Shown piece by piece: positions 3,082 to 57,965 of a stretch of 64,000 bases of DNA (the stretch's first letter is position 1; every line of letters begins with the position of its first letter). The translations under genes were made by a program, and so were the position numbers. The stretch is from Siphonodentalium dalli. Taxonomy: Eukaryota > Mollusca > Scaphopoda > Gadilida > Siphonodentaliidae. The DNA lies in the NCBI GenBank assembly GCA_032622095.1, contig CP136064.1, positions 43,604,989 through 43,668,988 of the forward strand. The letters run 5' to 3'. The notes beneath the pieces were generated by a model. It saw nothing but the letters and a program-made list of their open reading frames with translations. It did not search any database and was not told where the DNA came from.

Positions 3082-3446
3082 CCCTTTACCCAACAGAAGG
3101 GCCCTGTGCCAATGCATTCTCTTATATATGCGAGTCGACCATAGGTTGCCTCGCATATATAAGAGAATGCATTGGCTTAACACATTAAAAATTATAAAAT
3201 TGTTAAAGAATGTAAGAAAAAATGGTAAAAAGTGTTAAAAAAAGATTTTTAGGCCAATGCATTCTCTTATATATGCGAGGCGACCTATGGTCGACTCGCA
3301 TATATAAGAGAATGCATTGGCACAGGGCATAACTGTAACTATCACAATGTGGTCAAGGAGCCGGTTCCAATGATATCCATATATGTATGGTTCTATTGAG
3401 ACAGACCGAAGATATTTTAGGCTGTTGAAGCTTTATTTGGCCGGTT
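3082..3446 (+). mobile_element. piggyBac-like TTAA MITE, copy A (3' end lost)
   Basis: TTAA at 3078-3081 precedes CCCTTTACCCAACAGAAGGG, the left end of the family seen intact at 10438-10805. Two 67-bp palindromes follow in opposite orientation (3109-3175 and 3254-3320), then the family's internal 'gtggtcaaggagccggttcc' stretch. Similarity stops after 'tttatttggccggttt', so the right terminal repeat and its TTAA are missing. Confidence 0.8.
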
Positions 3447-3662
3447 TAGAGCGTCCCCAAGCAGCACCGGTGGCACATTCTTGAAACATCTGCACATAAC
3501 TAAACTGCGTTTTGTATAGGAATCAGGGAGCTAAATGTGTTCTAGAGTCGGGGAGCGAGTACACCGTGGAATGCTAAAGGTGAAGGTAACCGAAGAATGA
3601 CCTTCACCTGATACATGCGACACGTTATCAAAAAATTATTAAAATTGTAAAAAATTGTTAGG

Positions 3663-3729
3663 CCAATGCATTCTCTTATATATGCGAGGCGACCTATGGT
3701 CGACTCGCATATATAAGAGAATGCATTGG
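3663..3729 (-). repeat. 67-bp palindrome, isolated copy
   Basis: This is a full copy of the palindrome beginning CCAATGCATTCTC and ending GAGAATGCATTGG. Its context ('aaattgttagg' before, 'cacagggtaaaaaaa' after) matches one side of the long-inverted-repeat element at 22263-22730 rather than the TTAA MITEs. It is probably half of such an element. It lies inside the TIR element 2864-3801. Confidence 0.75.
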
Positions 3730-3801
3730 CACAGGGTAAAAAAAATCTGGCAGGATATTGTTCATATCCGTAATCGTAATCGTGATTTTGCGAAAGGTGT
3801 C

Positions 3802-4349
3802 TAATATTCATGACTAACTGCGGTTTAATTTGTGACACGGACATGTAAACGACTGGCAGTGATTGGAGTTGTCATGTCAATCAACATGCTGCCGATAAAT
3901 TAGTGTAGTTAATCAGCGCAGTCACGCGATTCCCAGTTGGGTCCGGTACTATCAGGGCAAATTTCCTCACCTGACCACAAATGGTAGCAATCCGTAACAT
4001 TTTGGTTTCTGCCAAAATTGCTGATAGTGAACTGCGTTGTAAACTGTACCAAGAACTCCGTCAAACAACGTCTCTATCTCGTCATTATTAGCACACGCAT
4101 GCATATATACAGCCGCCGGGGTGCGCCACGAAAAACGTACGTATAGTCTCCCACCCCATATATGAACACTATATATGACAATACACTCTCGACTCAAACA
4201 TTGCAGTTAATCCGTATGATTGACTTTCCTGCCGACGTAACCTTGTGAGGTAAAATGATTTCGTAATATTTCGAAATTATGTAAACATCTTTGTAAAATG
4301 ATTTCCTCACATTAAATTACTGCTTTCAATTCTAAACTCATGTGGAGTT
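3802..4349. other. No recognisable gene
   Basis: Unique-looking AT-rich sequence. Short open frames on the minus strand (for example about 3967-4197) show no domain. Nothing else is supported. Confidence 0.5.
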
Positions 4350-4893
4350 CAGGGCCCTTTTTCATGAAAGCAACTTATGACATAGTTGGGACTTAAGATG
4401 GTCATAAGTTCAAACTTCAGTCATAAGTGCGTTTCACGAACAAGGTCTTAACTTAAGATGGTCTTAACTTTGGTCTTAACTTTAAGACTGGTGTGAGGTG
4501 TCTTAAGATAATCTTAAAGTTAAGACCCACGTGATAAGTGGCATATCGGGCACAAATATGGCGGCCTATGTTGTTTTGCAATTACGGAGAGATCTACGAC
4601 GAATATGTAACAAAACATCTTTATTTGCATGGACAGCTTCTGTTATAGTGCCACCAGTTGATGACTGGAAAAAATAGGATTTCTTTTCGTTGCTGACATT
4701 TCGGAAGCAATGCGTCTAGTGACAATATTATCATATTCGGAATGGTTGGAACATTATCACGTGGTCCTTTTTGGACATTAAATGCCCACGCCCATGTCGT
4801 GATTTTCAAGGCTGTCCAAATTTGTTTCATGTTTTTTTTGCAGGGGTGGGATGACCATTGTACAGCATTCTGTATCTATATCTATATTTGCGA

Positions 4894-4894
4894 A

Positions 4895-4933: not shown

Positions 4934-5089
4934 GTTCTATAGAAATTCACAGGGGACCATCTAGATGATGCCAAAGGGGTCTACTAGGAGTAGCTTTTTA
5001 CGAGAAAGATAATGGTCGGGGTTAGAAATTTCTAAAGTGACGCCGTTATTGTCAGGGGCAGAAAAGGGGGAGGGGCAGAAAAAATATTT

Positions 5090-5835
5090 GTCGCCGATTG
5101 CCACAAAACTTATATATAATCATCCCCATAATATGATGAATCTAATGGTGTGGTTTAAATATGGCAAAAGTCGCGCCGTTCGCGTCAGGGGTGCCCGGAA
5201 GGGGGGGGGAGATTTTTTTTTCTTCTGTCGCCGATTGCCACGAAACTTACATATAATCATCCCCATTATATGAAGAATCCAACGGTGTGGTTTGTGACGT
5301 CGTTTGAGTCAGGGATGAACGGAAGGGGAGAGGGCACCAAAATTGATAAAACTAATTTTAGCGCCGATTTCCACCAAATTGATATATATTCTTCTTCATG
5401 ATACAAGGAATCTAATTGTGCGATTTAACAACGCCAAATTGTTGTTTTGGGTGAGAGATTGGGAGGGGGTGGGCACTAAATTTGACAATAAGTCGCCGAT
5501 TGCCACCACACTTATACAAAATCATCCCCATGGTATGAGGAGTCTAATGGTGTGGCTTTTATCTGTCAAATGTGGCCTCATTCAAGTCAGGGTTGCATTG
5601 AAAGGGACAGGGGCACCAAAATTGACGCACAATTTTTTTAGCGCCAATTTCCACCAAATTGATACACGTTCTTATCCATGATACGAGGAATCTAATCGTG
5701 ATTTAAAGACGCCATAGTGGTGCTGTTTGGGTGAGCGATGGAGAGGGGAGGGATTGGCACCAAATTTGATAAAATAAATTGTTTAGTCGCCGATTATCAC
5801 CAAACTTATAAACAATCAACTCCATGATATCAGGA
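5090..5835 (+). repeat. Tandem array of about 140-bp units in Helitron A
   Basis: Units begin near 5090, 5227, 5361, 5492, 5641 and 5786 with (g)tcgccgatt-ccaccaaactta or gcgccgatttccaccaaatt. Each continues through 'atgatatgaggaatctaat' and 'gtgtggtttaaa' and ends in a G-rich 'gagaggggcaccaaa' segment. Two unit types tend to alternate. More decayed units follow between 6440 and 7130. The arrangement recurs at 51841-52925. Confidence 0.85.
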
Positions 5836-5854
5836 GTGTAATCGTGTGGTTTAA

Positions 5855-6374
5855 AGGTGGATTATCTCTTTGTAAACATGTATTATATAGTTACCGGGGT
5901 ATAAAATATTAGATTTGAATCGAAGACTCCGGTCCGGAAATGCTTCTATCGATTAATATTAATTTTATTTCGAACATTTTCTGGTCTAAAAATGTGTGTT
6001 TGTTCAGCTAACGAACAATAGTGGTTACTGTTAACAGAGACCAGAAATTATATTGTGCAATTTTGTCACAAATAAACGTTAATTATACTCATTATCGCTT
6101 ATATCTGTGGAACAAAACAATACAAACAACCAATATGTGACATTTGACATTCGTTGCGTAGCCGTAGAAACAGCCCAGTGCTCTATATCGCAATACGGTC
6201 TCATCCAAATGGTCGGTTCTAAAAATAGTAACATAAACGGGCCCGATTTAATATTCGAAATAAAATCAATATTAATTTATAGAAGCTTTTCCGGACATAG
6301 GTCTTCAGTTCATATCTATTATTTTATACCCACGCAACTATTTAAAATTTGTTATTTAAAGAGATAATCCATCT
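5855..6374. mobile_element. TTAA-flanked TIR element (AGGTGGATTATC ends) in Helitron A
   Basis: TTAA at 5851-5854 and 6375-6378 bracket inverted ends AGGTGGATTATCTCTTT and AAAGAGATAATCCATCT. The similarity extends some 60 bp inward through 'ggtataaaatattaga' and its complement. It splits the Helitron phrase 'gtggtttaaa / gatgtc'. Ends beginning AGG with TTAA duplications fit Kolobok-type transposons. piggyBac also uses TTAA, so the superfamily is an inference. There is no transposase. Confidence 0.75.
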
Positions 6375-9300
6375 TTAAGGATGTCACAAGTGGGGCCATT
6401 CGAGTCAGTGGTGTATAGAGATGAGAGGTACAAACAAAATTATATCTATACGTTTAGTGCCGATTTCCACCAGATTGATACATATTCTTCTCCGTGATAC
6501 GAAGAATCTTATCGTGTGGTTTAGATACACCAAATTGGTGCCCTATGGGTGAGAGATATGGGGACCTTAAATTTGATACGAATTTGTATACTCGCCAATT
6601 TTCACCAATTTCATATATATGCATCTCTAATCTCTAATGAGTCTTAGTGTGTGCAGCTTGAGTCCGAAATAGGGACGGGAGGGTCACCAAAACTGATACG
6701 AAATATTTTTAGTACCAATTACCATCAAATTCAGACACGTTCTTCTCAATTGATACAAGAAATAAAATCGTGCTGTCTGTCTGTCTTTTTGTCTGTCTGT
6801 GTGCGTTCTATATATAACTTCACGCGGTACAATCGAGATGGCGCCAAGGCGTTCTGAGATGGGTAACTTTTTACAAGGAAGATAATGGTGCGGGTTAAAA
6901 TTTTCTAAAATGACGCTGTTGGTGGGAGGGGAAATTAAAAAAAAAATATGGTGAAATAGTTTTGTCGCTGATTTCCACCAAACGAATATATAATCACCTT
7001 CGCGATATGGCGTTGTTCGAGTCAGCGTTGCATCAACAATTGATTTAATAAACCAAATTCCACCAAATTCATACACGTTTTTCTCTAATGATATACCATG
7101 AATTAAATCACATTTGGTGTCGTTTGCGTCACGTATGGCGAGCGGCTATGCACTATCATTGATAAGATTGCTATTCGCTGATATCCACATATAAGTTATA
7201 TACAGTCACAAGGCCATCTCCATATCATTTTAAGTAGTTGTCGTTCACATTTCACAATCCCGACATACATGTATGGTGACCCACATAAGTCACTTGAACA
7301 ATGATATCTTCTTAACAGTCATATTTATATGGGAATGGCAATCAAGGCATTCACACAATGAGCTAGCAAAAAGAGATAACTAGAAGAAACATTAAACGTA
7401 TAGTTATCATTCTATTGAAGAGATACATATATTCGTGCAAACTGAGAGACCTCGAACCGTCATAGGATTGCATATATATAATAACAAAATTTAGTCTGTT
7501 CCATTCAATACAGTTTCCACAAAAAGTTACAATTTGTCAAGAGATATGGAAGGCCTGTTCAAAAATAGTGGTCATAGTGTGCAGTCAAATATAGTTTCTT
7601 CTGATATTCAAGAAAATGCAGTTAGTAGCACAAGACTTTTCAGGATCCTACCAATACTGACATCTGAGAAGGGTTTTATAACAGACTCATCGACTGACAT
7701 AAACAACTCAAAATCTCGCTCTGTGCGTGGCACATGTAGCTGATATATGTGCGCAGCAACATTTCGTTTAAACTAAGAATATTTAGCCAATATATAGCAC
7801 CATGAACAGAGGAGCACCTGGAAAGTTCTTTGAAACATCTGTATCTTCATGGAGATATGATAGCCAGGTGTCCTCGAGATCTTAGTCCAACCCACTAGAT
7901 TGATTGATACATCTCAATATGTAAAACCCAATAATCATCTTTTATCGAACTAATGTGTTTATGATGTTCATGTATCATATTCTAACGTCTAATGTATACA
8001 CAGTTGTAAATAAATAAATACTTCATTATTGGTGGAACGGATTAATCGCGATAAATAGAATGACAATTGACAAGGTGGGCCACTACTTATATTCCATGAC
8101 TGTAATAATCATGTTTTGTGATGCTATTTGAATATACAATTTATGAGAAAACGTATAACACTTTAAGCAAGAGCATTCTCTATTCCCAACAAATATCCAC
8201 AGCATACATTAACCTGGGCAACGCCGGGTAACCCTGCTAGTATATGATATACACACCCGTAACGATAACACCCCTTAATGCGAGTGTGCTAATGAAAACG
8301 TAGTTATATATAACCATGGTATGACAACCGATAGATATACATCTGCATAAAAATAATAAAAAAGTTGCTCTAACAAATATTTTTAATTTCCCTTTGAATC
8401 GAAAAATGACCTATGTGTGTCCTGATGACATCGCCGATTTATTTTGATTATTGCTACACGTAGATAGCGATGGTCAATAATACACGTGCTATGTCGGCTC
8501 ACCTAAAAAAATCGCCGCATGATCATTGCTCTCGTGGATTAATTCGGCGTGAATGCATGGTCGCAGTCATGGATCGTCCCATATAATCATATTGTCTGAC
8601 ACCGCCACTCACCAGTAAACGCAAAGCTCGTCATTTTAAGAGCCTGCGATGTACTCATGTTCGAATTTACGTCGTGAAACCCATGCAAGTCTAAGATCCA
8701 TATGCGAATATAAGGCCACTGCCTATAGACATTAAGATACATGCGCTGATTCGCCCACCCACACCCCAGCCGCTATCCAGCATCCCTGTCACACAATAAT
8801 TTCAATTCGGACTCGGCTCTTTCTCGATAACCTCTCAATGCCGGACATACAGATTGCACAAGCCCACATTGTTTTGTTCCTGACTGTAGAAAATTGTCGA
8901 TAACCAGTCTAAATGAGCGGGAACTTAACTTACTACTTAAGTAGGACTTAATCTTGTTTTGTGAAACGCGTTCTTGAAACGGAAAAGTTACATCATAAGA
9001 TCCACCTTAGATCTTAGATTAAGTCCATCTTAAGATAATCTTATGACCTTGCTTCACGAAACAGCGCCCAGAAAAGTATGTATTTTTATTAACCTGGTTA
9101 CGGTCATATTTGTTTACGGACTACGGCCTCGTAGTCGTCAATTCTGCGAAAAAGTTTTTGGACGGTCCAAAAAAAAATTACGACTACTAACAGCTAGTCG
9201 TAATAGTTATCCGTCGTCGGTCACTATGCAAAATGTGTCTAATGTCATAACTATTACGTGCATTCGCTAGATTTTTATTGGATCTACCGTGTTGAATTGC

Positions 9301-10433: not shown

Positions 10434-10437
10434 TTAA

Positions 10438-10805
10438 CCCTTTACCCAACAGAAGGGCCCTGTGCCAATGCATTCTCTTATATATGCGAGTCGACCATAG
10501 GTCGCCTCGCATATATAAGAGAATGCATTGGCTTAACACATTAAAAATGATAAAATTGTTAAAGAATGTAAGAAAAAATGGCCAATGCATTCTCTTATAT
10601 ATGCGAGGCGACCTATGGTCGACTCGCATATATAAGAGAATGCATTGGCACATGGCACATGGCATAATTGTGACTATCACAATGTGGTCAAGGAGCCGGT
10701 TCCAATGATATTCATATTTGTATGGTTCTGTTGAGACAGACCGAAGATATTTTAGGCTGTTAAAGCTTTATTTGGCCGGTTTTGGCCGGTTTGTTGGGTA
10801 AAGGG
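10438..10805 (+). mobile_element. piggyBac-like TTAA MITE, copy C (intact reference copy)
   Basis: Perfect inverted ends CCCTTTACCCAACA and TGTTGGGTAAAGGG are each flanked by TTAA (10434-10437 and 10806-10809). The TTAA duplication and CCC start are the hallmark of piggyBac-family transposons. At 368 bp with no frame for a transposase it is a MITE. It carries the 67-bp palindrome at 10465-10531 and again, inverted, at 10582-10648. An internal AT-rich spacer ('gttaaagaatgtaagaaaaa') separates them, and a 'gtggtcaaggagccggttcc' tail segment follows. Confidence 0.9.
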
Positions 10806-11751
10806 TTAATTGGGTTGGAGTTTGCCAAACACAAGATGTCCAACTGTTGGGCATTTCTCATTTGAGATACCGTATGATCCAATATGTTTGGAAATTTTAG
10901 TTGGAACAGTTTCAGCCTATCTCACAGTAACATCTAATGTTGGGTAAGGTTTGAATGTTCCGAAACTTGTGACCAAAGCTTGGAGAAACACCGAACCCCG
11001 TCCGCTGTCGCGATGTTCCTGAAGCTGAACCTGGAGGCAACGTGCATGCGTTGTAAAAGCGACATCACTTTTGTAGAAAATGCAAATCCCTTTAATTATT
11101 CAACAGTGCCTATGTACCCATTAAATATCATCGTCTGTGAAATGTATTTGTACATTTTGGATGCGCACAGCGCATAAAATGCAAAACCTAAAACATTAAA
11201 ACAAGGAGACACATTAACTAAACGGTGCAAGCATGTCTGATGTGCATGCTAATTGCATGTTTACAAATATTTAAACATGCCGTCACATATGGGTTCAATT
11301 CAATGCGTTGTGTTATTTTCGACGTTAAATTTGCTGTTATCTATTCTGGGCGCATCATTTTACGCGATGCACATTGGTATGTTTCGTTCAATACACCTTA
11401 GATTCATTTTCGGTTGCTGAATGTATACCTTAAGCGTTTCGTTTTTTGGATAAGTTCATCAAAGATACCGCGGAAACTAATACCGGTATTCCTCCGATAT
11501 CCCATTTGGGACTCTTTGGGACGTTTTTTTTATATTTCCATCGGAATTTCCGGTAGTAATCCGAAAGGAATCCCGACCAAAATCCGGACCTGAATCCCAA
11601 CAAAATCCCTATCGATTGTCAGAATGTTCCATTCAAATATGACCGGCATTGCCCAAGGATCCCATTGTGATTTTTTAAGGACGACCAGCTGGGCGCAGCC
11701 CAGCCGCGCATGTGTTGCGCAGCTTATACTAAGTTCGCTTTTCAACATGGG

Positions 11752-18835: not shown

Positions 18836-18959
18836 CCCACAAAGACCACGCACGTTATGAGAATCGTCGACTTTGGAAATAAACTTTTGTACAGCTTCAA
18901 AGATTAGTGAATTTGTTTCTTCGTCGGACATGTCATAAGACCATACAATAGGACATTAA

Positions 18960-19351
18960 CCCTTTACCCAACAAACCGGCCAAAATCGGCCAAATAAAGC
19001 TTCAACAGCCTAAAATATATTCGGTCTGTCTCAATAGAACCATACACATATGGATATAATTGGAACCGGCTCCTTGACCACATTGTGATAGTTACAGTTA
19101 TGCCCTGTGTCAATGCATTCTCTTATATATGCGAGTCGACCATAGGTCGCCTCGCATATATAAGAGAATGCATTGGCCTAAAAAAAATCTTTTTTTAACA
19201 CTTTTTACCATTTTTTCTTACATTCTTTAACAATTTTATAATTTGTAATGTGTTAAGCCAATGCATTCTCTTATATATGCGAGGCGACCTATGGTCGACT
19301 CGCATATATAAGAGAATGCATTGACACAGGGCCCTTCTGTTGGGTAAAGGG
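18960..19351 (-). mobile_element. piggyBac-like TTAA MITE, copy D
   Basis: Inverted orientation relative to copy C, with intact CCCTTTACCCAACA ends and TTAA on both sides (18956-18959 and 19352-19355). Palindromes lie at 19110-19176 and 19258-19323. In both, the outermost base pair on the element's outer side has changed (TCAATGC / GCATTGA), while the inner ends are unchanged. Confidence 0.9.
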
Positions 19352-19355
19352 TTAA

Positions 19356-21920: not shown

Positions 21921-22262
21921 TTATTCCAAACCGGTGACGCATGTTCGAGTATGGGCATGTCTCCGAATATGATTTACACTTTTCCCGGCCTTTTCGATTA
22001 TCATTTTACATGAGTTTCCCAAGATCCGGTGTTAATTAAGAAACAGCTAACTTTTAATGAGATTTTACCTCTGTAATTTGCGATGCCACTATCGTTAATG
22101 GCGGTGGACATTAGCTTAATTCATCCTCGGTACTATTAAAGCTTCCGTTTTTAAAAGATTAAATTTTACTAACCACATTGCATATAATATTTTCAGTTAT
22201 ATCATTAATATAAATAAGATTGCATGGATCTACAACGGTATCCCTGTTGTACCCCTGCTGAT
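21921..22262. other. No recognisable gene
   Basis: AT-rich sequence between two elements. Nothing was recognised. Confidence 0.5.
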
Positions 22263-22730
22263 ATATGTGACCCGCCATATCAAATCCAGTCGGAAGTCGG
22301 GATTTTTTTTACCCTGTGCCAATGCATTCTCTTATATATGCGAGTCGACCATAGGTCGCCTCGCATATATAAGAGAATGCATTGGCCTAACATTTTTTTA
22401 CAATTTTAATAATTTGTTCTTGTATTCTTTAACAATTTTATAATTTCACCCATACAGAGCCCCAGACAAACATGAGCAGACGACACTCTTCTATGTGCTT
22501 CTATATATGTGTGGGGCTCCCTGCAGGGTAATGGATGTTTTTTTATTTTATGTCCTAAACATAGTAAGAAACATTTATTTAAAAAACATGATAAAAAATT
22601 GTTTAGCCAATGCATTCTCTTATATATGCGAGGCGACCCATGGTCGACTCGCATATATAAGAGAATGCATTGGCACAGGGTAAAAAAATCCCGACTTCCG
22701 ACTGGATTTGATATGGCGGGTCACATATAC
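22263..22730. mobile_element. Long-inverted-repeat element carrying two 67-bp palindromes
   Basis: The outer arms (about 22263-22310 and 22682-22730) are near-perfect inverted copies containing 'tgacccgccatatcaaatcc' and 'agtcggaagtcggga'. They lead directly into ACCCTGTGCC / GGCACAGGGT and the palindromes at 22319-22385 and 22607-22673. Together each arm is about 120 bp. Between them lies an AT-rich spacer and a second small hairpin (22455-22522) with 'gagccccag' / 'tggggctc' and 'gagcagacgacact', which recurs near 57884-57950. No TTAA ends are present, so this is a different vehicle from the MITEs. Confidence 0.75.
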
Positions 22731-25109: not shown

Positions 25110-25113
25110 TTAA

Positions 25114-25579
25114 CCCTTTCAGTGCCAAGTCAGATTTTTGTATCAACCCATATACCCTGTACCAATGCATTCTCTTATATATGCGAGTCGACCATAGGTC
25201 GCCTCGCATATATAAGAGAATGTATTGGCCTAACAATTTTTCATCATTTCTTATTATTAATAATTTTTTCTTATATTCTTTAACTCTTTCAGTGCCAGAC
25301 TTATTTTGTAGGTTTAGTGCCAGGGAATCTTACGTTTTTCATGGGCATCAAAATTATTACTATGAATACTTTGTGATAGTTTTGAGTTATAACATGCCCC
25401 TGAGATTTTATCCAGTTTGTTTTTAAATTTGCTATAGCATATCCAAAAACAATTCAACCCAAAAAAAAAAATTCAACCCCAAAAAAACAAAACATTTTTT
25501 TAGGGCCGATTTTATCAGCCCTCGCACTATACAGACCGTAAATTAGGGCCGATGAGATCGGCCCGTGGCACTGAAAGGG
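25114..25579. mobile_element. TTAA element with CCCTTTCAGTGCC ends and one palindrome
   Basis: Inverted ends CCCTTTCAGTGCCA and TGGCACTGAAAGGG are flanked by TTAA (25110-25113 and 25580-25583), again piggyBac-like. The ends differ from copies A-F beyond CCCTTT. It contains a single 67-bp palindrome (25162-25228, with one G to A change in the right arm), introduced by 'taccctgt' as in the 22 kb element. A second 'ttaactctttcagtgccag' occurs internally at 25279, suggesting one copy nested in, or duplicated within, another. Confidence 0.85.
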
Positions 25580-25583
25580 TTAA

Positions 25584-42892: not shown

Positions 42893-43355
42893 TACATATT
42901 ACTGATACATATTACTGATACATATTACTGATACACATTACTGATTACTGATACATATTACTGATTACTGATAAATGTTACTGATATATTACTGATTACT
43001 GATACATATTACTGATTACTGATACATATTACTGATTTCTGAACTGATTACAGATACATATTACTGATACATATTACTGATACATATTACTGATACTGAT
43101 TACTGATACATATTACTGATTACTGATACATATTACTGATACATATTACTGATACATATTACTGATTACTGATACATATTACTGATTACTGATACATATT
43201 ACTGATACATATTACTGATACATATTACTGATTACTGATACATATTACTGATACATATTACTGTTACATATTACTGATTACTGATACATATTACTGATTA
43301 CTGATACATATTACTTATTAATATTCCTGATACATATTACTGATACATATTACTG
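42893..43355 (+). repeat. Minisatellite of 'acatattactgat' and 'tactgattactgat' units
   Basis: Some 35 short units of 13-21 bp alternate irregularly, built from 'catattactgata' with or without an extra 'ttactga'. Confidence 0.95.
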
Positions 43356-44499: not shown

Positions 44500-44503
44500 T
44501 TAA

Positions 44504-44959
44504 CCCTTTACCCAACAAACCGGACAAAAACGCCCAAATAAAGCTTCAACAGCCTAAAATACTGTCTGTCTCAATAACACCATACAAATATGGATATCAT
44601 TGGAACCGGTTCAATGACCACATTGTGATGGTTACATATATGCCATGTGCCAATGCATTCTATTATATATGCGAGTCGACCATAGGTCGCCTCGTATATA
44701 TAAGAGAATGCATTGGCCTAAACAAAATTATTTTTTAACACTTTTTACCATTTTTCTTACATTCTTTAACAATTTTATAATTTTTTCTTACATTTTTTAA
44801 CAATTTTTATAATATTTTTCTACATTCTTTTACAATTTTATCATTTTTAATATGTGTTAAGCCAATGCATTTCTTATATATGCGAGGCGACCTATGGTCG
44901 ACTCGCATATATAAGAGAATGCATTGGCACAGTGGCGTTCTGTTATGTTGGGTAAAGGG
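44504..44959 (-). mobile_element. piggyBac-like TTAA MITE, copy E
   Basis: Ends CCCTTTACCCAACA and TGTTGGGTAAAGGG with TTAA at 44500-44503 and 44960-44963. Palindromes are at 44650-44716 and 44862-44927. Both have lost perfection through changes in one arm only (for example a missing 'ctc' block near 44870). The AT-rich spacer is about twice that of copy C because 'ttttttcttacattctttaa' words have been repeated. Confidence 0.9.
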
Positions 44960-44963
44960 TTAA

Positions 44964-45453: not shown

Positions 45454-46123
45454 TCCCATTATTAGTAAGAAGCATTAAAAAACCCATTATTAGTATGAAG
45501 CATTAAAACACCCATTATTAGTATGAGCATTCAAAAACCCATTATTAGTGTAAAGCATTCAAAAACCCATTATTAGTGTGAAGCATTCAAAAACCCATAT
45601 TAGTATGAAGCATTCAAAAACCCATTATTAGTATGAATCATTCAAAAACCCATTATTAGTGTGAAGCATTCAAAAACCCATTATTAGTGTGAAGCATTCA
45701 AAAACCCATTATTAGTGTGAAGCATTCAAAATCCCATTATTAGTATGAAGCATTCAAAACCCCGTTATTAGTGTGAAGCATTCAAAAACCCATTATTAGT
45801 GTGAAGCATTCAAAAACCCATTATTAGTATGAAGCATTCAAAAACCCATTATTAGTATGAGCATTCAAAAACACATTATTAGTGTAAAGCATTCAAAAAC
45901 CCATTATTAGTGTGAAGCATTCAAAAACCCATTATTAGTGTGAAGCATTCAAAATCCCATTATTAGTATGAAGCATTCAAAAACCCATTATTAGTGTGAA
46001 GCATTCAAAAACCCATTATTAGTGTGAAGCATTCAAAAACCCATTATTAGTATGAAGCATTCAAAAACCCATTATTAGTATGAATCAGTCAAAAACCCAT
46101 TATTAGTACGAAGCATTCAAAAA
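45454..46123 (+). repeat. 28-bp minisatellite, about 24 copies
   Basis: The unit CCCATTATTAGTGTGAAGCA plus TTCAAAAA repeats, with GTGTGAAG, GTATGAAG and GTAAAG variants arranged in higher-order runs. The block from about 45530 is partly echoed from about 45870. Confidence 0.95.
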
Positions 46124-47264
46124 CATACATATTATTACCTACATGTATTGTAATGATGGCACGTATTGTTGGACATCCACTATACGCACGATGACTATTC
46201 CTGTCGTTTTAAAAACACCAGATCAGCCATGATTTATATATATATCTGGGTTAGCCAAACACCGCGAAAACGACAACTTCAGAAATATAACACAATAATA
46301 ATAATTTTTCTCCACTAATATCATAGTAATTCAGCAGGACCCACAAGCGTTACAGCAAATTAGTATGACAACTTAATCAAGAATGGTGCCCATGCACTGG
46401 AAGAGAAAGCTCCACTCTGCGTACTTTCGATTTGAAATTAGAGTTGTCAAGAATAGCATCGACAGTATCCTTGAATGTGCCTAATGGGACACACGCACGG
46501 GTCTGTGACACAATTTAATCCCCAACAAATGGATGAGCAGAGCATGACACCAAATGCAGTCGTGACGGGTCAAACAGTTGAATGCAACTTTCCAGAGTTC
46601 ATAATTAATTCATGACCTGACTTGCGAAATGCTATGAACATGCGCAAAAAACATATAGCGTAGTGTTGAAACTGGCTCCTGTTCTTTTTCAGTCTAATTG
46701 CCACTATTCAGTCGAACTGTTTAATTTGTCCATTAACAACTCTCTCTGTGGACTCCCCAGACTGGAAATACGGGTCACCCGGTGATAACGGCGCGTCGGG
46801 CTTTAAATCTTCAAACAATGTCCAGTGACGGCCCAGCTGGGGAGATCGCGTCTACGATGCTTGTCGTGGGTCGTTTTCATTTCCATGGTAACGATTTGGC
46901 ATTGGAATTAATAATCTGTGTAACCTTTCGTCGGCCATGGAACTTACACTCCCGTGATATATGAGATGTATGAAGATATTGAGGCATTCGGAGAGAAGGT
47001 GAATTCTCCTAATCGAATCGGACCGTGATTGAAATTTTCATAAGCAACAACAGTCAAATTCACTAAATTACGACTATTTAATAAACCAGGTTGTTTATTT
47101 CATATTGGCTCAACACAATGGTGTTTGCGGGGGATAACGGTTACCCTTTACAGCGGCACACATATTTGTAAAATGTCCCTGGTAGGATAATCTTACCGCT
47201 GCAATGCATATCTTATCAACCACACCCAGCATACACCACATGCAATATATGTTCAAGATTTTAT
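46124..47264. other. No recognisable gene
   Basis: No conserved protein motif or repeat end was recognised. Short open frames only. Confidence 0.5.
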
Positions 47265-47545
47265 CAACCATGTGGCTAATATTGAGAAACCATGTGGTTT
47301 GTATTGAGAAAACATGTGATTGTATTGATAAACCATGTGTATGTTGATAAACCATATGGTTTATATTGACGAACCAGGTGGTTCATATTGAGAAACCATG
47401 TGGTTTATATTGAGAAGCCATGTGATTTTATTGATAAACCATGTCTTTATATTGATAAACCATATGGTTTATATTGACGAACCAGATGGTTTATATTGAT
47501 ATACCAGGTGGTTTATATTGATATATCAGGTGGTTCATATTAATA
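47265..47545 (+). repeat. Irregular tandem repeat of 'aaccatgtggtttatattga'
   Basis: About eleven units of 20-27 bp share 'accatgtggttt' or its variant CCATATGG palindrome, followed by 'atattga(g/t)'. Confidence 0.9.
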
Positions 47546-49127
47546 GAAGCGAATGCTTTGTACTGTATGCGGCTCAATACCGAAGGTTAGAAGTCGGCGC
47601 GGCATCGGGTTATCCAATCAATGATATTTGGCAATTTGTGCCACAATGAACGCTATCGAAGGTAGCAGATTCTCTTATGAGTGATGGCTTATGAAATAGA
47701 TCAATCTGGTCACTGTTCGTATTGGCCGGATAATTCTGTTGACAAATTTGTTGGGCTATTTCTGATATTTTTGGCCATTTTTCGAAAACCTAAACTAAAA
47801 CAAAAGTATAAAGAAACACGCACGAAAATACAACTTGCGTTTGACTAAAGAGATTAGGAAATGTGCACCGATGGGAACAACACACAACATTTATCAACAT
47901 ACATGAGCAATGATTCGCCAGGTTGTCTCCTTATACAAAGTAATATACTGTATTGTCACTTGATTAAGAAAGAGCACCCTAGAAGAACACATATCCCACT
48001 GCCTCAAGGAACTAGTACTATATTCTGCGAAGTTCCTGTACGTTCTCATCACAATGATCAGGAATGGCGTTCAGCAACCCGTGTCACGTCCATTGTAATT
48101 ATCTTCTCAACACCCACGCATGTTGTAACGACTAACTTTCATATCTATTGGACAAATCAGATTTTCCTGCAACAAAAGCTCTAGTGAACTTTCAAGTGCA
48201 CATATGCTTCACTCTCGTGGTTTCCAACACCTCCCCATACTTGTACATAACGGCCCATCACACTGACCAGGGGAGCCCACTTTAATCCAACTGTAATTAT
48301 ATGTCATGTATATCGATCTCTCCTATACTTGGAGGTAATAACGATATCCCTCTAGCAGCTAATCTTCAATGTTTTGACAAGCAATTATGTGTGACTTTGG
48401 ATAAATTGTTATTCGTACACAGGCGAGCAACTGTTAATTACATCCTTAACAAACTAAGGATGTCACGGAGATCAATTCAATTCAATTTAGTTTATCCTCA
48501 GCGTCAAGCTTAGGCATTACAGATAGATGTGCATATAAACATACAATATATGTCAATATAAATATACATGTATATATTATATGTGACATAAAGATAAAAA
48601 ATAGAAAAGGGTGTGGTTAATATTTGGTAGTTGCACCCTCTCAGTTCGCCAGGCAGGATGGTTTTAAGCCTCAGTTGGGTCTAATTATTTCAAAAACCTT
48701 CTTAATAAATATTGACAGATATTAACAGTCTTCTGATTTCGAGAGTTAAAAAGAGCGGCTAATTTATATTACTAAGTTATTTCTTTTGTACAGTAGAGAT
48801 TCATATGTTTTATTCTAAATTCGTTAAGTTCCCCACATTTCAGTATACCATGTTGTATTCATCGCCGATTTCAAGATTACAGAGTGCGCAAATTCGTGGA
48901 AATATATGATGATGATTTAAGAGGTGATTGTCAACTATATATAGATTTGAAACCTTTTTTCCAAAGAGTAAGGCCAAATGAATCTCTGGTCATTTCTAAA
49001 CAAATTTGCCAATTTGGTCCACCGACAGCGTGAATCACGCCCCTGTTGAATATGACTACATGCGCTTCACAAATTTGGAAGGACTCAAATTGCGTGAAAT
49101 ATCTCACATATATACCTTTTTATTTCC
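47546..49127. other. No recognisable gene; upstream region of the receptor
   Basis: Frames near 47861-48184 (107 codons) have no known motif. Upstream UTR exons or the promoter of the receptor gene could lie here, but I could not place them. Confidence 0.45.
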
Positions 49128-49129: not shown

Positions 49130-49162
49130 GTGAAGTGGTAAGCTCTGTAACACAAATCGAAG

Positions 49163-50455
49163 ATGGCGGACGACCCGGACGACATGGGCGATCTGCTGGA
49201 CATCGTCATATGTATGTTGGCCATCTTTTCCTTCGTTGGGAGCATTGGAAACGCATTGGTGTTGTACATATTCTACAACCTAAAGAACAAACTCACCTCC
49301 ACTATATTCATTCTCGCTTTGGCAGGGTTTGATTTTACTACATGCATAATAACGATGCCATTCACAATAGTTGTGGAATATTACACGTTTAAAGTCCCTG
49401 GAGGATTCTGTCAACTGTACCACTTCTTCATGAGTGCACCGGTCTGTTTTTCTGCCATATGCATGGTCGGGATAGCTTTAGACAGGTACTTGTGCATATG
49501 TCATCCATTTAAACACGCGATGACGACACAACGTGCACAATTCACCGTTTTATTTATGGTTGCCCTTGCCATGACAATTGGTGTGATAACTTGTCTATTT
49601 CATGGAGTGAGGATACCACCACCAACTCCGGATTCAGCTGTCAATTCGACAATAAACCTAACAGACATATTTCTCAATGACACTGATTTTGATCAGATGA
49701 CCACTCTTCCATTGGTCGGTTATGAATATGGATTTAGTACTCTCGACAACTATACGTCAACTACGTCTCCAGAAAATGTAACAAGAAACGAAACTCAAAT
49801 GGACGCCATGTGCATGGAATCGTTTGACATTTTCAGCAAAGGATTTTTCAAGGTATTTCAGAAGATCTATTCATCCATTTTTCTTGTTTCTTGTATCGTT
49901 GTGGCGGTGTTATACGCACTGATATACCGATCAGTTATCAACCAAAGGAACAAGAAACTCAAAATGACAAGCGCAGATGATAATTGTTGTGTTTTCTTCC
50001 CGTCAAGTTTATCTTCCGACGGTGGATTCGAAAACACGGAAATATCTACAATGATCGCCGACGAACAAACGGAGCAGACGACAATGGAACATAAAGAGCT
50101 AATGGTCAATAACTCGTCCGTTCCCAATTCCACTTCGCAGAAAAAGCAGAAACAGAATAAGAGTGATAAACGATGTAAAAACAAGGCCATGAGGCAGGGT
50201 TCGATATCGAAAAAGGCACGAGTGGAGAAAATGAGAATGGCGAACATTAGAACTGCAATAATGTTATCTGTGGTGACATTGGTTTTCATTATTGCTTTCT
50301 TGCCAGCTTGGCTAATGGCGCTTGGATTAATTGATTTAAACCTTATAGTGTTTTATATGTATTTTTTGTACAACGTGGCTAATCCTTTCATCTACGCCTT
50401 CATGAACCAGACTTTTAGAAACCAACTTGTTGCGCTATTTCGATGCAGGGCGTGA
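49163..50455 (+). CDS. Class A (rhodopsin-like) G-protein-coupled receptor, orphan
   Basis: A complete 430-residue seven-helix receptor in one exon, expected at the plasma membrane. TM1 holds GN (N30). TM2 has LALAGFD (D57). C83 precedes TM3, and DRY is at 107-109. TM4 is about 126-147. TM5 is about 235-256. TM6 is about 364-387 with P381. TM7 is about 394-412 with NPFIY at 407-411, then a short helix-8 tail ending in C428 R A. The N-terminus is only about a dozen residues. Extracellular loop 2 is unusually long (about 149-220), with N-glycosylation sites at N161, N165, N172, N196, N205 and N209, and C217 available to pair with C83. Loop 3 is about 105 residues and very basic near TM6. The usual CWxP of TM6 is AFLP here (F379 replaces Trp). 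Family features suggest a peptide or small-molecule receptor, but the ligand is unknown. The ATG follows AAG within 'aagATGGCGG'. An ATTAAA at 50493 could serve polyadenylation. Confidence 0.9.
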   Translation: MADDPDDMGDLLDIVICMLAIFSFVGSIGNALVLYIFYNLKNKLTSTIFILALAGFDFTTCIITMPFTIVVEYYTFKVPGGFCQLYHFFMSAPVCFSAICMVGIALDRYLCICHPFKHAMTTQRAQFTVLFMVALAMTIGVITCLFHGVRIPPPTPDSAVNSTINLTDIFLNDTDFDQMTTLPLVGYEYGFSTLDNYTSTTSPENVTRNETQMDAMCMESFDIFSKGFFKVFQKIYSSIFLVSCIVVAVLYALIYRSVINQRNKKLKMTSADDNCCVFFPSSLSSDGGFENTEISTMIADEQTEQTTMEHKELMVNNSSVPNSTSQKKQKQNKSDKRCKNKAMRQGSISKKARVEKMRMANIRTAIMLSVVTLVFIIAFLPAWLMALGLIDLNLIVFYMYFLYNVANPFIYAFMNQTFRNQLVALFRCRA

Positions 50456-51253: not shown

Positions 51254-51840
51254 TTAATGCAAATGAATCGATGAAGATGTATAAACATTCCATATCATAA
51301 ATTGTGCAGATTATTTTTATAATGTCAGTTTTGGCGGTTGCAAGCCAACGAAATTGTAATCAAGATAAATATTCCTGTCGTGTTACAAGTATACCAAATA
51401 ACAAATAACGGTATGTGTTCTTGACAGTATCTGTTTGCCCCACAAGTAAAATGTAAAACACTTCAGCAGGACCCATCGCCGACATCGTAGCAAATTAGCA
51501 AGAACTCCTGCATGGGGTGTGTGCACATGCATGTATATATATGTCGCATTCAGGCCGGGCTTATTTGCACTTTAGACGTGAAACAATCAATTTATAATAT
51601 AGGTACATTATTGGTTGATAAATACACGAAATACAGGGATATTGACATTATATCAATATTTGCGAATGTCTGCCTGTCTGTCTGTCTGTGTTCTATATAC
51701 ATTCACGGGAGATCATCTAATAGTACCGAAGGGTTCCAACAGGGGTAACTTTTTACGAGGAAGATAATGGTGCGTGTTAGAATTTTCTAAAGTGACGCCG
51801 TTGTTGTCAGGGATAGAAAAAGGGAGGGGCACAAAAATAT

Positions 51841-52925
51841 GTCGCCGATTTCCACCAAACTTATACACAATCATCCCCATGATATGATAAATATAATGGT
51901 GTGGCGTAAGATGTCAAAAGTGGCGCCGTTCGTGTCAGTGGGTACACGGAAGGTAAGAGGGGCACCAAAATTGATAAAATATTTTTAGCGCCCATTTCCA
52001 CCAAATTGATACACATTCCTCTCCATGGTATAAGGAATTTAATAGCGTGATCTAAAGACGCCAAATTAGCGACGTTTGGATGAGAGATGGGGGGCACCAA
52101 ATTTGATAAGAATTGGTTTAGTCGCCGATTACCACCAAACTTATACATAATCATCTTCATGATATCAGGAGTCTAATGGTGTTGTTTAAATATGTCAAGA
52201 GTGGCGTCATTCGAGTCATGGTTGCACTGAAGGGGAGAGGGGCACCAACATTGATACACACAATTTAGCGCCGATTTCCACCAAATTGTACAGATTCTTC
52301 TCATGATACGAGGAATCTAACCGTGTGATTTAAAGACGCCAAGTCGATGCCGTATGGTTGAGAGATTGGGGGGGGGGGCACTAAATTTGATAATAATTTG
52401 TTTAGTCGCCGATTACCACCAAATGTATACATAATCATCTCCAATATATCAGAAGTCTGATGGTGTGGCTTAAAGCTGCCAAAGGTGGCGTCATTTGAGT
52501 CAGGAGTGCACTGAAGTGGATATGGGCACATTAAAACATTTATAGCACCAGTTTCCACCAACTTGGTACACATACTTCTCCACGGTACGGGCAATCTAAT
52601 CGTGTGATTTAAAGAAGCACAAATTGTGCCGTCTATCTGAGAGATGGGGGCGGCACGAACATTGCTAAGCATTTGTTTAGTCGGCGATTTCCACCAATTT
52701 TAGATATAGTCATCTTCATATGAGTCTAATTGTGTGGTTTAAAGATGTCAAACGTGGCGTCGCTTGATTTAGGGATAGGGAGGGGAGAGCCACCAAAACT
52801 CATAAAATATGTTTAGCTCCAATTTCCACCATATTAACACACGTTCTTTTTCAACGGTCCGAGGAATCAAATCGTGTGGGTTAAAGACGCCACATTCGGT
52901 GCCATTCTCGAAGACTAAGCCATTT
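51841..52925 (+). repeat. Tandem ~140-bp units in Helitron B
   Basis: Units begin near 51841, 51988, 52121, 52268, 52405, 52544, 52680 and 52814 with tcgccgatt or gcgccgatt plus 'tccaccaaa'. The two types alternate as in locus A. Further units run from about 53550 to 54110. Confidence 0.85.
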
Positions 52926-54290
52926 CCGCAATGAGGAAATAACCTCTTCCATAAATAGAAATATTTTACGGTATATTTCAATCACATGATTTACCATGCG
53001 CATACCACCGGTAAATACGTTTGTTGGCTAGGAGACTCGTCTGTTAAGTTTGAACTAATTATTGCTAATTATTACTATTTATCACTATTTAATTCATGAC
53101 CATGTGTGGTACTGGCATACGCTGAATTGATTCTTCTGAGACTGCTCCGTTCGCATCTATGCGACGAGTCAAGATCATCACCTTATAACCAGGGTCGTAT
53201 ATTGTAGCATTCGGCGAATACTCGTGGTTTCTATTTATGGAAGAGGTTATTCCCAGGGCAGTATATTGTAGCATTGTGCGTGTATGCATGGTTTTTATTT
53301 ATGGAAGATGTTACTTCCTCAGCTAAGCTGAAATGGCCGAGTCGTTGAGAATGTATGTGGTGCCTATATTTGCGAATGACTGTCTGTGTTCTATATAACT
53401 TGACGGGGCCACCTAGATGGCAAAAGGGGTCTAACAGTGGTAACTTTTTACGAGGAAGATAATTGTGCTGGTTACAATATCTAAAGTAACGATGTTGGTG
53501 TCCGGGGCAGAACAGTGGGAGGGGCGCCACAAATGATGAAATATTTTTGTTGCCGATTTAAACTTATACATAATTATCTCCATGATATAGCGCCGAGTCA
53601 GGGTTGGAGGGGAGAGAAAAGGGCACAAATATTGATAACAAAAAATATTTTAGCGCCGATTTCCACCAAATTGATACATCATTATTCTTCTCCCTGATGC
53701 GAGGAATCTAATCGTGTGATTTTAAGACTCCAGGTCGGTGCCGTTTTGGTGAGAGATGGGGGGGGGCACTAAATTTGATAAGAATTCGTTTAGTTGCCGA
53801 TTATCGCCAAACTTATACATAATAATCTCCAAGGTATCAAAAGACTAATGGACGTAGTTTAAATATGCCAAACGTGGCGGTGTTCGAGTCATGGATGGGG
53901 AGAGGCATCAAAGCTGACAAAAATAAGTTTAGCACCATAATTTCCACCAAATGCATACAAGTTCTTCTTCGATGATACGAGGAAACAAAGTATGCGGGTT
54001 AAAAACGCCACATTTGGTGTCGTCTGTTTGGGTGAGGGATGGAGAGAGGAGAGGCACGAACATTGATAAGAATGTTTTAGTCGTCGTTATACATCAAAGG
54101 TACATATACAGTCATCTCCATAATTCGTTCTAAGGAGTTTTTGGCGTTCAAATCTCACAACCACGATAAATGGTGACCGAATTAAATCACTTGAACATTT
54201 ATATTATCTCAACTGTCATATGTAGACGGGACGGAAATCACGGCATAGATAGTCATCAAGCAAAAATAGATACATAGAAGAAAGCATTAA

Positions 54291-54732
54291 CCCTTTACCC
54301 AACAAAGCGGCCAAAAACGGTCAAATGAAGCTGCAACAGCCTAAATTATCTTTGGTCTGTCTCAATAACACCATACAAATATGGATATCATTAGAACCGA
54401 TTCATTGACCACATTGTGATGGTTACAGGTATGCCCTGTGCCAATGCATTCTCTTATATATGCGAGTCGACCATAGGTCGCCTCGCATATATAAGAGAAT
54501 GCATTGGCCTAAAACACTTTTTACCATTTTTTCTTACATTCTTTAACAATTTTATAATTTTTTCTTACATTTTTTAACAATTTTTATAATATTGTTCTAC
54601 ATTCTTTGACAATTTTATCATTTTTAATATGTGTTAAGCCAATGCATTCTCTTATATATGCGAGGCAATCTATGGTCGACTCGCATATATAAGAGAATGC
54701 ATTGGCACAGGGCCGTTCTGTTGGGTAAAGGG
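54291..54732 (-). mobile_element. piggyBac-like TTAA MITE, copy F, inside Helitron B
   Basis: Intact ends and TTAA on both sides (54287-54290, 54733-54736). Palindromes are at 54441-54507 and 54639-54705, the latter with two changes in one arm only. Helitron A at 7381-7410 reads 'agaagaaacaTTAAacgtat', the matching uninterrupted site with a single TTAA. Confidence 0.92.
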
Positions 54733-55521
54733 TTAAAAGTATATGTATCATTATATTTAAGAGATACACTTATTCTTGCAACACGAGGGACCTTAAACTG
54801 CCAGAGAATGGCAATTTAGAACGGCTTATGTATTATAACACAATTGAGCCTGTCCCATTATAATTCAAGAGAGTTTCCACAAAAAGAATTTTTTTTCGAG
54901 AGAGATGGAAATGTATATATAAAGAAGGCCTGTTAAAATAGTGGTCACAGTGTGCAGTCAGATAGCTTCTCCGGAGATAAAAGAAAACAGTTAGTAGCAC
55001 GCGACTTTTCGGGATCATCCAATACTGGCATCTGACAAGGGTACATCTGCCCGATACAGTGGATTTCTTTAATTTTTTAGAAATAATTTAAATCTCGCTG
55101 TGTCGGGCACATGTAGCTGATATATGGCAACATTTCTTTTAAACTGATACAAATTAGCCAGTATAGCACCATGAATATATGAGCATCTGCATGGACATTT
55201 CTACAAACTATCTGCATCTTCGTGGAGATAACCAGGTGTCCTCAAAACTTTAGTCCAATCAACTAGATTGATTTGTACTTCTCTATATGTAAAATCCAAT
55301 TGTCGTCTTTTATTTTTGCGAAGTAACGTGTTTGTGATGTTCATGTTTTGGTCACAATAAAAAATATTTAAAAAAAAAACAATGTCAATTCCAATCACGT
55401 CGACTGTTTACGATTTAACAAAAATGATAACGTCTGAAGTACACGCAGCTGTATATAACTACTTCTTTATTGGTGGAACGAATTAATCGCGATAAACAAA
55501 ATAAGAATCACTTGGACAAGC

Positions 55522-55705
55522 TATAGTAATGCCCTAATTAATCGACTCCTTTAACCACAGCAGACTTATGGGTAACTTTTCAGGATTTAGTCGGAAATAT
55601 GGCTTGTTGCCATTCATCGGAAAGCCATATTTCCGACTAAATCCTGAAAAGTTACCCATAAATCTGCTGTGGTTAAAGGAGTCGATTAATTGGGGCATTA
55701 CTGTA
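55522..55705. mobile_element. CAGTAATGCCC foldback element, copy 2, inside Helitron B
   Basis: Arms of about 80 bp with 'gactcctttaaccacagcag' and 'gtaacttttcaggatttagt' are nearly perfect complements around a short 'gttgccattcatcggaaagc' centre. TA is present at each border. The matching part of Helitron A near 8070-8090 ('gacaaggtgggccac') lacks it. Confidence 0.85.
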
Positions 55706-55889
55706 GGTGAGCCACATCTTATAATCCATGTGTAATAATGACGTTGTTTGATGCCATTTGGAAATACAATTTATGAGAATACGTGTAACACTTTGAGCAA
55801 GAGTTTTCTCTATTCCCACAAAATGTCCACATCAGAGGGTTTCACATCACTTTATCCTGGGCAACGCCGGGTAACCCTGCTGGTACTCA

Positions 55890-57719
55890 ATATATACTGA
55901 CAAACAAACTTACAAAGCCATAGACATTTTCCAGCAGTTTTATATTTTATGCACACAAATTAGGCATTGGCTGCGGACACAAGTACCACAGTAGCGATGA
56001 CAGTAGGTGTGACATCTTAATATGGTGGTTTGGTTGCAATTGGTCGCCATAATTACGATGCCATAGCTAAACATGTCGCCCGCTGCGTTTTCGCACAATG
56101 AGTCTATACTGGATCAATCAATCCATCATGTCTCACCAAGGTTTATCTCTAATTACTCATTACGTATAGCCATATTGTATTCTTCTCTATGATATATATA
56201 GTTGCACGATCATTCATAATTGTATTTGACCATGGTAATCCCCCATTCACTCACATGTAAGTAGTCCGTTTAATTGGTATGAACTTAATGCACGTGTATC
56301 CACTTATACATTAATTTCATGCTGATTAAGACAGGTCACCAATTGCGTTATTTTATTTTGCGACGTTTAGTTTTACACATAATTCCTCTAAAATGTAGAC
56401 AGATGAAGCTCTGTCGGAACTGTTGGAGGAAATGCAATTCATTGGTTTTGTCCGGCACTTATAAATACGATTTATATGTCGTTTTGTTTGTTCCAATTCT
56501 CCCAACAGTAACGTGCGCAGACCCGAACGTATCATAATTCGACCGTACATGTGTATGAACTCGAGATAACAATAACATACAACTGATCGCAATGTTTGAA
56601 CTTCGACTTTGATTAACTTATACATGTATATGCTGAGAAATTACACGGTCGATATTTCTTAGTAAGAAAATTCATGCTTGTTGACAGAAAGGGGTTATTC
56701 ATTAAGTTACCAAGTGGACTTCTGTGACAATATTGGGGGTACCAGTTACATGTATACCAACACGGATAATGAATTGGGACGAACACTACATCTATTGTTA
56801 TCTAGTTATGAACGACATATATACATAATCGCCACCTTCCCATGGTCACGAACCTTCAGAGTTGATGGATGATGTGGCTATCTAGCATGGGTATATAACG
56901 TGTGCAAATCAACAACCAGTCAGAGAGGAATTGAGAGTTCAGCTCAGTTGGAGTTCAGTTCGGAGTTCAGTTCGGAGCACGGAGCTCGGCCAGTCAGATA
57001 TACACGATGCCAGAGAATAGTCCGGGAATAGACTTATAATATACAACGAGAGAAACGACGACGCTACAACTTGCCTAGATATAAATTGTTGTTACATGTA
57101 AACTTCATATGGTTTAATAAGTATGTATTAAATTGTAACGCAATCAACGGCCAAAGTCAATCTCGATACATGACCATGGTATTGGTACACTTGTGTGTGA
57201 GCTTGAAAAATATAACACTGCGTGTTGAGTAAAGATCAACAGCCGCACGACATTCAGGTAGATACATCCTTGAGTGATCGACCGCGACGCTGAAGAGCTT
57301 GGCAGACCAATTGTGTGAAAACGCAGCCGGCGACATGGCTAAAAATGGCATAGTAATTAGGGTGACCAATTGTCACCAAACTCCACCATAATAAGATGTC
57401 ACACTACTATGCCATCGCTAGTGTGGTCCACAGCCATTCCCGATATTGTCACGAGATAAGATAAGTTTAGGTGGCAAAACATCCTTACGTGAACATAATA
57501 TATAAATGTAAATTGTGTAGTGAACATAATAATAAATGATATTAATATAAGGTAATGTAAGTATAACCTCAGACAAGCTGATGATCGTCTCGTCTGTATC
57601 TATTTATTGATTTATGATACGATGTTCATCGCGTGTGGAGCATACTATTCGGATCATATGACAAATCGAAGTGCATGTATTTAATATATTATTGGATAAG
57701 ATTTTGTGAGGTTAATGAA
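55890..57719. other. No clear gene; possible promoter-like patch
   Basis: Near 56891 'gtatataac' is followed by 'cagtcagagaggaattgaga' and tandem 'gttcagttcggagttcagtt' (56935-56985). This resembles the TATA and leader layout of some LTR retrotransposons, but no LTR pair was found. Open frames near 56319-56625 on both strands carry no known motif. Confidence 0.35.
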
Positions 57720-57720
57720 A

Positions 57721-57965
57721 CCCTGTGCCAATGCATTCTCTTATATATGCGAGTCGACCATATGTCGCCTCGCATATATAAGAGAATGCATTGGCCTAAC
57801 AAATTTTATATTATTTTTATAACTGCTAAAAAATGTAAAAAAAATGAACATATCGTTATTTTATAGAATCTAATTACCCTTATGGAGCCTCTCACAGACG
57901 TGAGCAGACGACACTCAGCTATACAAGCTGCCACCTGTATGGGGCTCCCTACGGGGTTTTTACAT
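57721..57965. repeat. Single-palindrome element
   Basis: 'aaaccctgtg' leads into the palindrome at 57728-57794 (one central change, CATATG for CATAGG). Further on comes a second small hairpin (57884-57950) with 'ggagcctc' / 'ggggctcc' and the 'gagcagacgacact' word shared with 22455-22522. 'ccctacggggttt' may be the other end. It lacks TTAA ends and a second 67-bp palindrome. Confidence 0.65.

Follow-up and report, generated by a model that had tools for sequence, protein, structure and literature searches.

A 64-kb window from the genome of the scaphopod mollusk Siphonodentalium dalli (64,000 nucleotides; assembly GCA_032622095.1, contig CP136064.1, positions 43,604,989 to 43,668,988 of the forward strand) contains fifteen copies of a 67-nt palindrome carried by transposable elements with several kinds of tips; this window, and not the whole genome, is the basis of the analysis. 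The carriers, here called vehicles, are five miniature inverted-repeat transposable elements (MITEs) with TTAA ends (A1 to A5), a long-inverted-repeat element (LIR), elements C and D, and a copy designated E. We tentatively read the palindrome as a subterminal transposase-binding site that resembles the internal repeat of piggyBac but is far longer, and that would have been kept while the tips around it were exchanged, a reading to which we assign somewhat less than an even chance.

An earlier note on this DNA, made from the sequence alone, had reported fifteen copies of the palindrome; all are present, and every coordinate proved right. Searching the whole window with the half-arm 13-mer (up to three mismatches) returned 50 matches against 23.3 by chance (standard deviation 4.9), of which 30 are the arms of the fifteen palindromes and the remaining 20 are about as many as chance would give. 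A 67-mer profile built from the fifteen window copies themselves and scanned over both strands recovered the same set, each with E ≤ 1e-23, and gave nothing further until E = 0.52 (the same copies on the opposite strand excluded), so that the window yielded no half-decayed copies. A length of 67 nt is shared by fourteen copies; the one at 44862 has 66 nt, owing to a one-base deletion. Departures from the consensus total only 11 across the fifteen copies, or 10 independent changes when a T common to copies 19110 and 19258 is counted once. The G+C content of the window is 33 to 41% per 4-kb block. The consensus has perfect 26-nt arms followed by TCGACC-ATA-GGTCGC, in which ATA forms the loop, and a G before and a C after the palindrome contribute one extra pair. 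A T27/C41 mismatch near the center is fixed in 15/15 copies, and correction of one arm by the other was rejected on that account. As RNA, copy 10465 is predicted to form a near-perfect hairpin of 31 pairs (-50.9 kcal/mol, z -13.9), and as DNA a hairpin is likewise energetically possible. Half of the 10 independent events (5) fall in the central 15 nt, a surplus (p = 0.051) from which we make no claim. The TATATAAG of the arms was also considered as an outward TATA box.

The center of the palindrome is asymmetric, and its orientation relative to the vehicle is identical in 15/15 copies. When the flanks are oriented by this asymmetry, the outer one reads CCCTGTG exactly in 11/15 copies and with one mismatch in the other four; since this motif stays on the outer side in all fifteen, palindrome and outer flank travel together. 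With one copy taken per vehicle (A short side, LIR left, C, D, and E; five vehicles, 10 pairs), the outer CCCTGT and the inner C-TAACA, each covering six of seven border bases, agree in 10/10 pairs, while agreement falls to 6/10 at position -8 and lies between 1/10 and 6/10 from -9 to -25. Among all 54 cross-vehicle pairs, which exclude copy 44862 owing to its deletion, six of the seven outer bases agree in 81 to 100% of pairs and the seventh in 76%. This sharp outer border, together with a looser inner one, therefore delimits a conserved unit of about 81 nt that is strict on the outside only. All six elements that hold two copies carry them inverted, one on each arm.

The five MITEs to which the earlier note assigned ten copies do have common ends, with one gap: CCCTTTACCCAACA is present at 9 of the 10 expected tips, the right tip of A1 (3078-3447) being missing. 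A tip beginning CCC is a known property of piggyBac elements. TTAA, the target duplication by which that superfamily is recognized, adjoins each of the nine tips found. All nine tips read CCCTTTACCCAACA and so begin with CCC, unlike the 5'-RR tip described for Kolobok elements (PMC9587614). The four complete MITEs are 376 to 464 bp long, and the core lies 20 to 25 bp from the tip on the short side (5/5 copies) and 139 to 150 bp from it on the long side (the four copies retaining that tip). They thus have a palindromic internal repeat at both ends at unequal spacing, as piggyBac does, with a length of 67 instead of 19 as the difference.

The other vehicles have ends of their own. A long-inverted-repeat element without TTAA and with two palindromes had been announced, and LIR (22262-22729) is such an element: its ends read TATATGTGACCC..., neither tip adjoins the TTAA of piggyBac, the outer 48 nt of its arms are 100% complementary, and the arms run on through the palindrome. 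Two copies had been described as standing in fragments. No ends were recognized for E (57728); the copy at 3663 is not in a fragment and sits in an element (D, 2858-3807) with terminal inverted repeats of about 57 bp that are 86% alike. D carries the palindrome in its right arm only, and its tips, preceded by an AT-rich stretch, have the sequence TAGANACCTTTCG, again with no adjoining TTAA of the piggyBac kind. A second member of its inverted-repeat family, about 2 kb long (19949-21926), has no palindrome, and its 188-aa open reading frame (ORF; 21292-21858, minus strand) has no Pfam match. The copy at 25162 had been placed in a TTAA element; a tip does precede the palindrome, but C is composite or nested, because a second tip-bounded unit begins at 25280 within its T-rich tract, with a third CCCTTTCAGTGCC-type tip (one mismatch) at 25284. 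Plausibly the 25280-25583 unit is nested in that tract, where the far side of the unit bears TTAACAAT, a sequence also present in the MITE interior. The tip TTAACCCTTT is common to A (short side) and C (0/4000 random window pieces), and apart from it the tips differ between vehicles. A likeness of outer flanks among the non-MITE vehicles (GATTTT...ACCCTGTG) was too weak over the 15 pairs tested for any claim of homology (D-LIR 0.0105, C-D 0.024, and LIR-C 0.07 of random window pieces). LIR and E also hold related hairpin-like segments (22448-22529 and 57876-57957) in which TGAGCAGACGACACTC is identical; folded as RNA with short flanks, they give z -1.8 (+) and -3.2 (-) in LIR and -4.7 (+) and -2.4 (-) in E.

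Inside the palindromes the vehicles resemble one another. We scored the relatedness of the inner flanks past position +7 against 1000 dinucleotide shuffles. Relatedness holds for every pairing among the T-rich inner flanks of A (long side), LIR (left), C, and D (0 to 5 of 1000 shuffles). E has a match in the A short side (0/1000), and the LIR right flank has one in C (1/1000) and none in A, D, E, or the left flank of LIR. At best marginal similarity links E to the remaining flanks (D-E 46/1000, A1 long side-E 54/1000). In total, 14 of 30 comparisons lie at or below 5/1000, and these connect all vehicles. Moreover, a 30-nt AT-rich unit (up to seven mismatches) occurs ten times in the window, each time within 104 bp of a palindrome start. 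Because these inner AT-rich flanks are related, what the vehicles carry is more than a bare palindrome, and they are not independent of one another; judged by the sequences, the arrangement looks like different tips set on one related interior, with palindromes at its borders.

D 3630-3747 matches LIR 22418-22301 over 118 bp at 98.3% identity with abrupt ends; the patch is edged by T-runs, and no likeness extends beyond it in that comparison. One transfer between these two vehicles is thus well supported. The palindrome in D came as part of the patch, because the D copy has 11 further outer bases of LIR. The suggestion of the earlier note that the palindrome is a module that moved between vehicles is therefore right in that the tips differ and the D-LIR patch was transferred, and goes too far in implying a lone jump, since outer flank and orientation are kept in 15/15 copies and the interiors are shared.

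We then compared the palindrome with the DNA around it. In six cross-vehicle pairs picked by the analyst, the palindrome has 0 or 1 differences and the homologous inner flank 4 to 19. For five of them (matches in palindrome v flank: 67/67 v 56/65, 66/67 v 42/54, 67/67 v 32/36, 67/67 v 51/62, and 66/67 v 38/57), p ranges from 7e-7 to 0.013, and for the sixth (66/67 v 45/50) p = 0.08. The comparison of LIR with E weighs most, because T-rich tracts may drift fast for reasons of their own: there the non-repetitive interior matches at 61/80 sites (19 differences) and the palindrome at 66/67 (p = 5e-5). Among the five MITEs, with the A1 tail past alignment column 450 masked and variable columns counted only where at least four of five copies have a base, 6/134 palindrome columns vary against 28/154 in the long outer arm (p = 0.0004) and 34/251 in all columns outside the palindromes (p = 0.005). 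The short outer arm (3/31) is not significantly above the palindrome, and for MITE copy pairs the contrast of palindrome with everything outside reaches p < 0.05 in 6/10. The earlier note had held that the palindrome is better conserved than its surroundings, and named equal divergence of palindrome and flanks as part of what would refute its view; within the window the outcome is mixed. The claim stands between vehicles, with a slower palindrome in five of six pairs, and only in part among the MITEs, where it is clear against the long outer arm alone.

If the unit is a protein footprint, its sharp outer edge, its constant orientation, its slow change, and its presence in inverted copies on both arms would all follow. 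The proposed course of events starts from a group of non-autonomous DNA transposons that would share one AT-rich interior bordered by inverted units of about 81 nt, in which the palindrome is a putative subterminal cis-acting site bound by a transposase dimer or higher oligomer. Selection during transposition would hold the unit intact while tips are swapped and the interior drifts. Tips may have been exchanged by template switching at T-runs, and the T-run borders of the D patch fit template switching during gap repair. That a protein binds here, which protein it is, and that LIR and D use the site although they lack TTAA are points we infer. A bolder version sees a portable cis-acting "ticket," the site of one protein that serves several transposases of TTAA and non-TTAA superfamilies and is kept while tips are swapped; we regard it as doubtful, and use of the palindrome by non-TTAA elements, if true, would be the more surprising outcome. 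Of the two kinds of explanation in the earlier note, a functional core fits better than a free module, and the hairpin-RNA form of such a core is without support.

Several observations weigh against a transposase-binding site. The inner border is loose, its seven bases agreeing in 54 to 100% of the 54 cross-vehicle pairs, as the sequence there is CCTAAAA or similar on the long side of the MITEs. Because LIR and D lack TTAA tips, one piggyBac-type transposase is not enough to account for every vehicle in its present form, and no transposase was recognized among the window ORFs examined. At 67 bp the palindrome is far longer than the 19 bp of piggyBac. The sample of changes is small (10 independent), the T-rich flanks may simply mutate faster, and conservation within the MITEs is no lower in the inner flank (3/66 variable columns) than in the palindrome (6/134; p = 1). 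This last point, like the low variation of the short arm, would be expected if the palindrome had no special role and were merely the least drifted part of a single, recently expanded family. We consider that improbable, given the contrast between interior and palindrome in E and LIR (19/80 aligned sites v 1/67) and given tips that differ between vehicles, except TTAACCCTTT of A and C.

Among the alternatives, the one we rate highest, though still unlikely, takes the unit from CCCTGTG to CACAGGG as a small transposon in its own right, with the palindrome in its terminal inverted repeats, which inserted into other elements and was carried along. It would account for the sharp outer border with unrelated DNA beyond it in the vehicles compared, for the related interiors, and for the TA that flanks the unit on each side in LIR and precedes the core in C and D. 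However, the MITEs show no target-site duplication (GAAGGG at one border, CATAAC at the other), three of the five vehicles have one end only, and, instead of occupying random sites, the unit directly adjoins the inner end of the host terminal repeat in LIR, D, and the short arm of the MITEs; the D copy, with its 11 extra LIR bases, arrived as a patch. Less probable again is homogenization, in which gene conversion, following breakage of hairpin-prone palindromes and repair with other copies as templates, would keep them alike without functional selection. The private T at position 1 of both A3 palindromes, the patch common to D and LIR, and the lack of half-decayed copies in the window are what such a process would leave, yet pairs within an element are not significantly closer than random ones (six pairs, 7 v 8.6 differences, fraction 0.18), and apart from the D-LIR patch the conserved outer edge lies at -7 or -8, where random conversion tracts would be unlikely to stop. 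Least likely of all is a hairpin RNA (microRNA-like or small interfering RNA) of relevance to element or host, an option raised by the earlier note that the results do not support in particular. The fold of copy 10465 is strong, but any long palindrome would fold in this way. None of the 31 pairs has changed on both sides among the 14 full-length copies (8 distinct; 44862 excluded owing to its deletion), where variation is too low for a strong test, and no Rfam family reaches its gathering score anywhere in the window. Two short stretches gave many sub-threshold matches to microRNA and other families (E down to 5e-6; best score 45.8 bits, where the gathering score is 140), which any long hairpin could produce.

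Coordinates of the palindrome cores, their vehicles, and related segments are given in Table 1.

Table 1. Palindrome-bearing cores and elements in the window (core, 81 nt: outer CCCTGTG, palindrome, and inner 7 nt).
Feature	Position	Strand	Remarks
MITE A1 short side, core	3102..3182	+	palindrome 3109-3175
MITE A1 long side, core	3247..3327	-	palindrome 3254-3320
Element D right arm, core	3656..3736	-	palindrome 3663-3729
MITE A2 short side, core	10458..10538	+	palindrome 10465-10531
MITE A2 long side, core	10575..10655	-	palindrome 10582-10648; inner flank altered after deletion
MITE A3 long side, core	19103..19183	+	palindrome 19110-19176; private T at position 1
MITE A3 short side, core	19251..19331	-	palindrome 19258-19324; same private T, position 1
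LIR left arm, core	22312..22392	+	palindrome 22319-22385
LIR right arm, core	22600..22680	-	palindrome 22607-22673
Element C, core	25155..25235	+	palindrome 25162-25228
MITE A4 long side, core	44643..44723	+	palindrome 44650-44716
MITE A4 short side, core	44855..44934	-	66-nt palindrome 44862-44927, one base deleted
MITE A5 long side, core	54434..54514	+	palindrome 54441-54507
MITE A5 short side, core	54632..54712	-	palindrome 54639-54705
Copy E, core	57721..57801	+	palindrome 57728-57794
MITE A1	3078..3447	+	TTAA + CCCTTTACCCAACA left tip; right tip missing; nested in D
MITE A2	10434..10809	+	both ends TTAA
MITE A3	18956..19355	-	both ends TTAA
MITE A4	44500..44963	-	both ends TTAA
MITE A5	54287..54736	-	both ends TTAA
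LIR, long-inverted-repeat element	22262..22729	.	arms extend through palindrome
Element C	25110..25583	+	TTAACCCTTTCAGTGCC tip, palindrome, T-rich tract to 25283; then tip-bounded unit 25280-25583
Element D	2858..3807	.	~57-bp terminal inverted repeats; palindrome patch in right arm only
118-bp patch in D	3630..3747	-	98.3% identical to LIR 22301-22418
LIR interior segment GAGCCCC...GAGCAGACGACACTC...GGGGCTC	22448..22529	+	related to E 57876-57957, 61/80

The window holds other features besides. Tandem arrays include about six copies of a unit of ~384 bp (37087-39243), a 28-nt minisatellite in many copies (45442-46195), and arrays of 13/20-nt (42847-43383), 21-nt (18598-18856), and 22-nt (47234-47579) units; degenerate tandem clusters of a ~135-150-bp repeat (GTCGCCGATTTCCACCAAACTTATACA...) lie about 45 kb apart at 5077-7009 and 51828-53866. 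An open ORF of 434 aa (49151-50455) encodes a rhodopsin-type receptor whose best matches among solved structures are the neuropeptide Y/FF, apelin, and cholecystokinin receptors. Retrotransposon ORFs occupy 59953-63302, with a reverse-transcriptase RNase H-like domain in 62577-63302 and no Pfam match for the ORF at 59953-62031.

Exact searches of IMG/VR contigs with the arm 26-mer, a 20-mer, the central 25-mer, and the 18-nt MITE tip, and of GTDB genome contigs with a 24-mer and a 19-mer, each gave 0 matches, and six exact sequence strings gave no match in a full-text corpus of 5.39 million papers. Literature on palindromes in MITEs and piggyBac ends describes related elements, none of which, among the matches listed and in the text available for them, is reported to share such a palindrome. 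The non-autonomous Helentron elements of bivalves (HINE; PMC7492417) are likewise modular, abundant, non-coding, and palindrome-bearing, with internal repeated units, but their palindrome is described there as short and confined to the 3' end, with subterminal repeats and a microsatellite; the A elements have two inverted palindromes and TTAA tips, and LIR has long inverted repeats, so that neither follows the Helentron/HINE plan of subterminal repeats, a 5' microsatellite, and a short palindrome at the 3' end alone. The pearl-type element DTC84 of Donax (PMC5139131) is also a modular MITE, with a palindrome near a repeat junction in all examined copies; the likeness is one of description, and several tip types sharing the palindrome are not mentioned in the available portion of that paper. 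Template switching and ectopic exchange are named as sources of variants in Galileo, a P-superfamily element with dynamic terminal repeats (PMC4168063), and offer a comparable route to structural variants, although there the variants belong to one element and the 15-bp palindrome is a target motif outside it.

The closest parallel is piggyBac, which integrates at TTAA and carries identical 19-bp palindromic repeats in its two ends, spaced asymmetrically from the tips, each internal repeat being bound by a dimer of the cysteine-rich domain of the transposase (PMC7351741, PMC11707139). The A MITEs similarly have the same inverted palindrome on both arms, unequally spaced from TTAA tips; unlike the piggyBac repeat, theirs is 67 nt and not 19, has a fixed T/C mismatch near its center, and also occurs behind non-TTAA tips. 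The origin and partner changes of MITE families are poorly known, and an invariant palindrome behind varied tips would reveal which part of a MITE is needed for mobility and which can be exchanged, while offering one short sequence for binding tests. Probably, then, this is a subterminal transposase palindrome, a feature already known, in a long form, and the principle of the piggyBac palindromic repeat would come to cover a site of three to four times the length.

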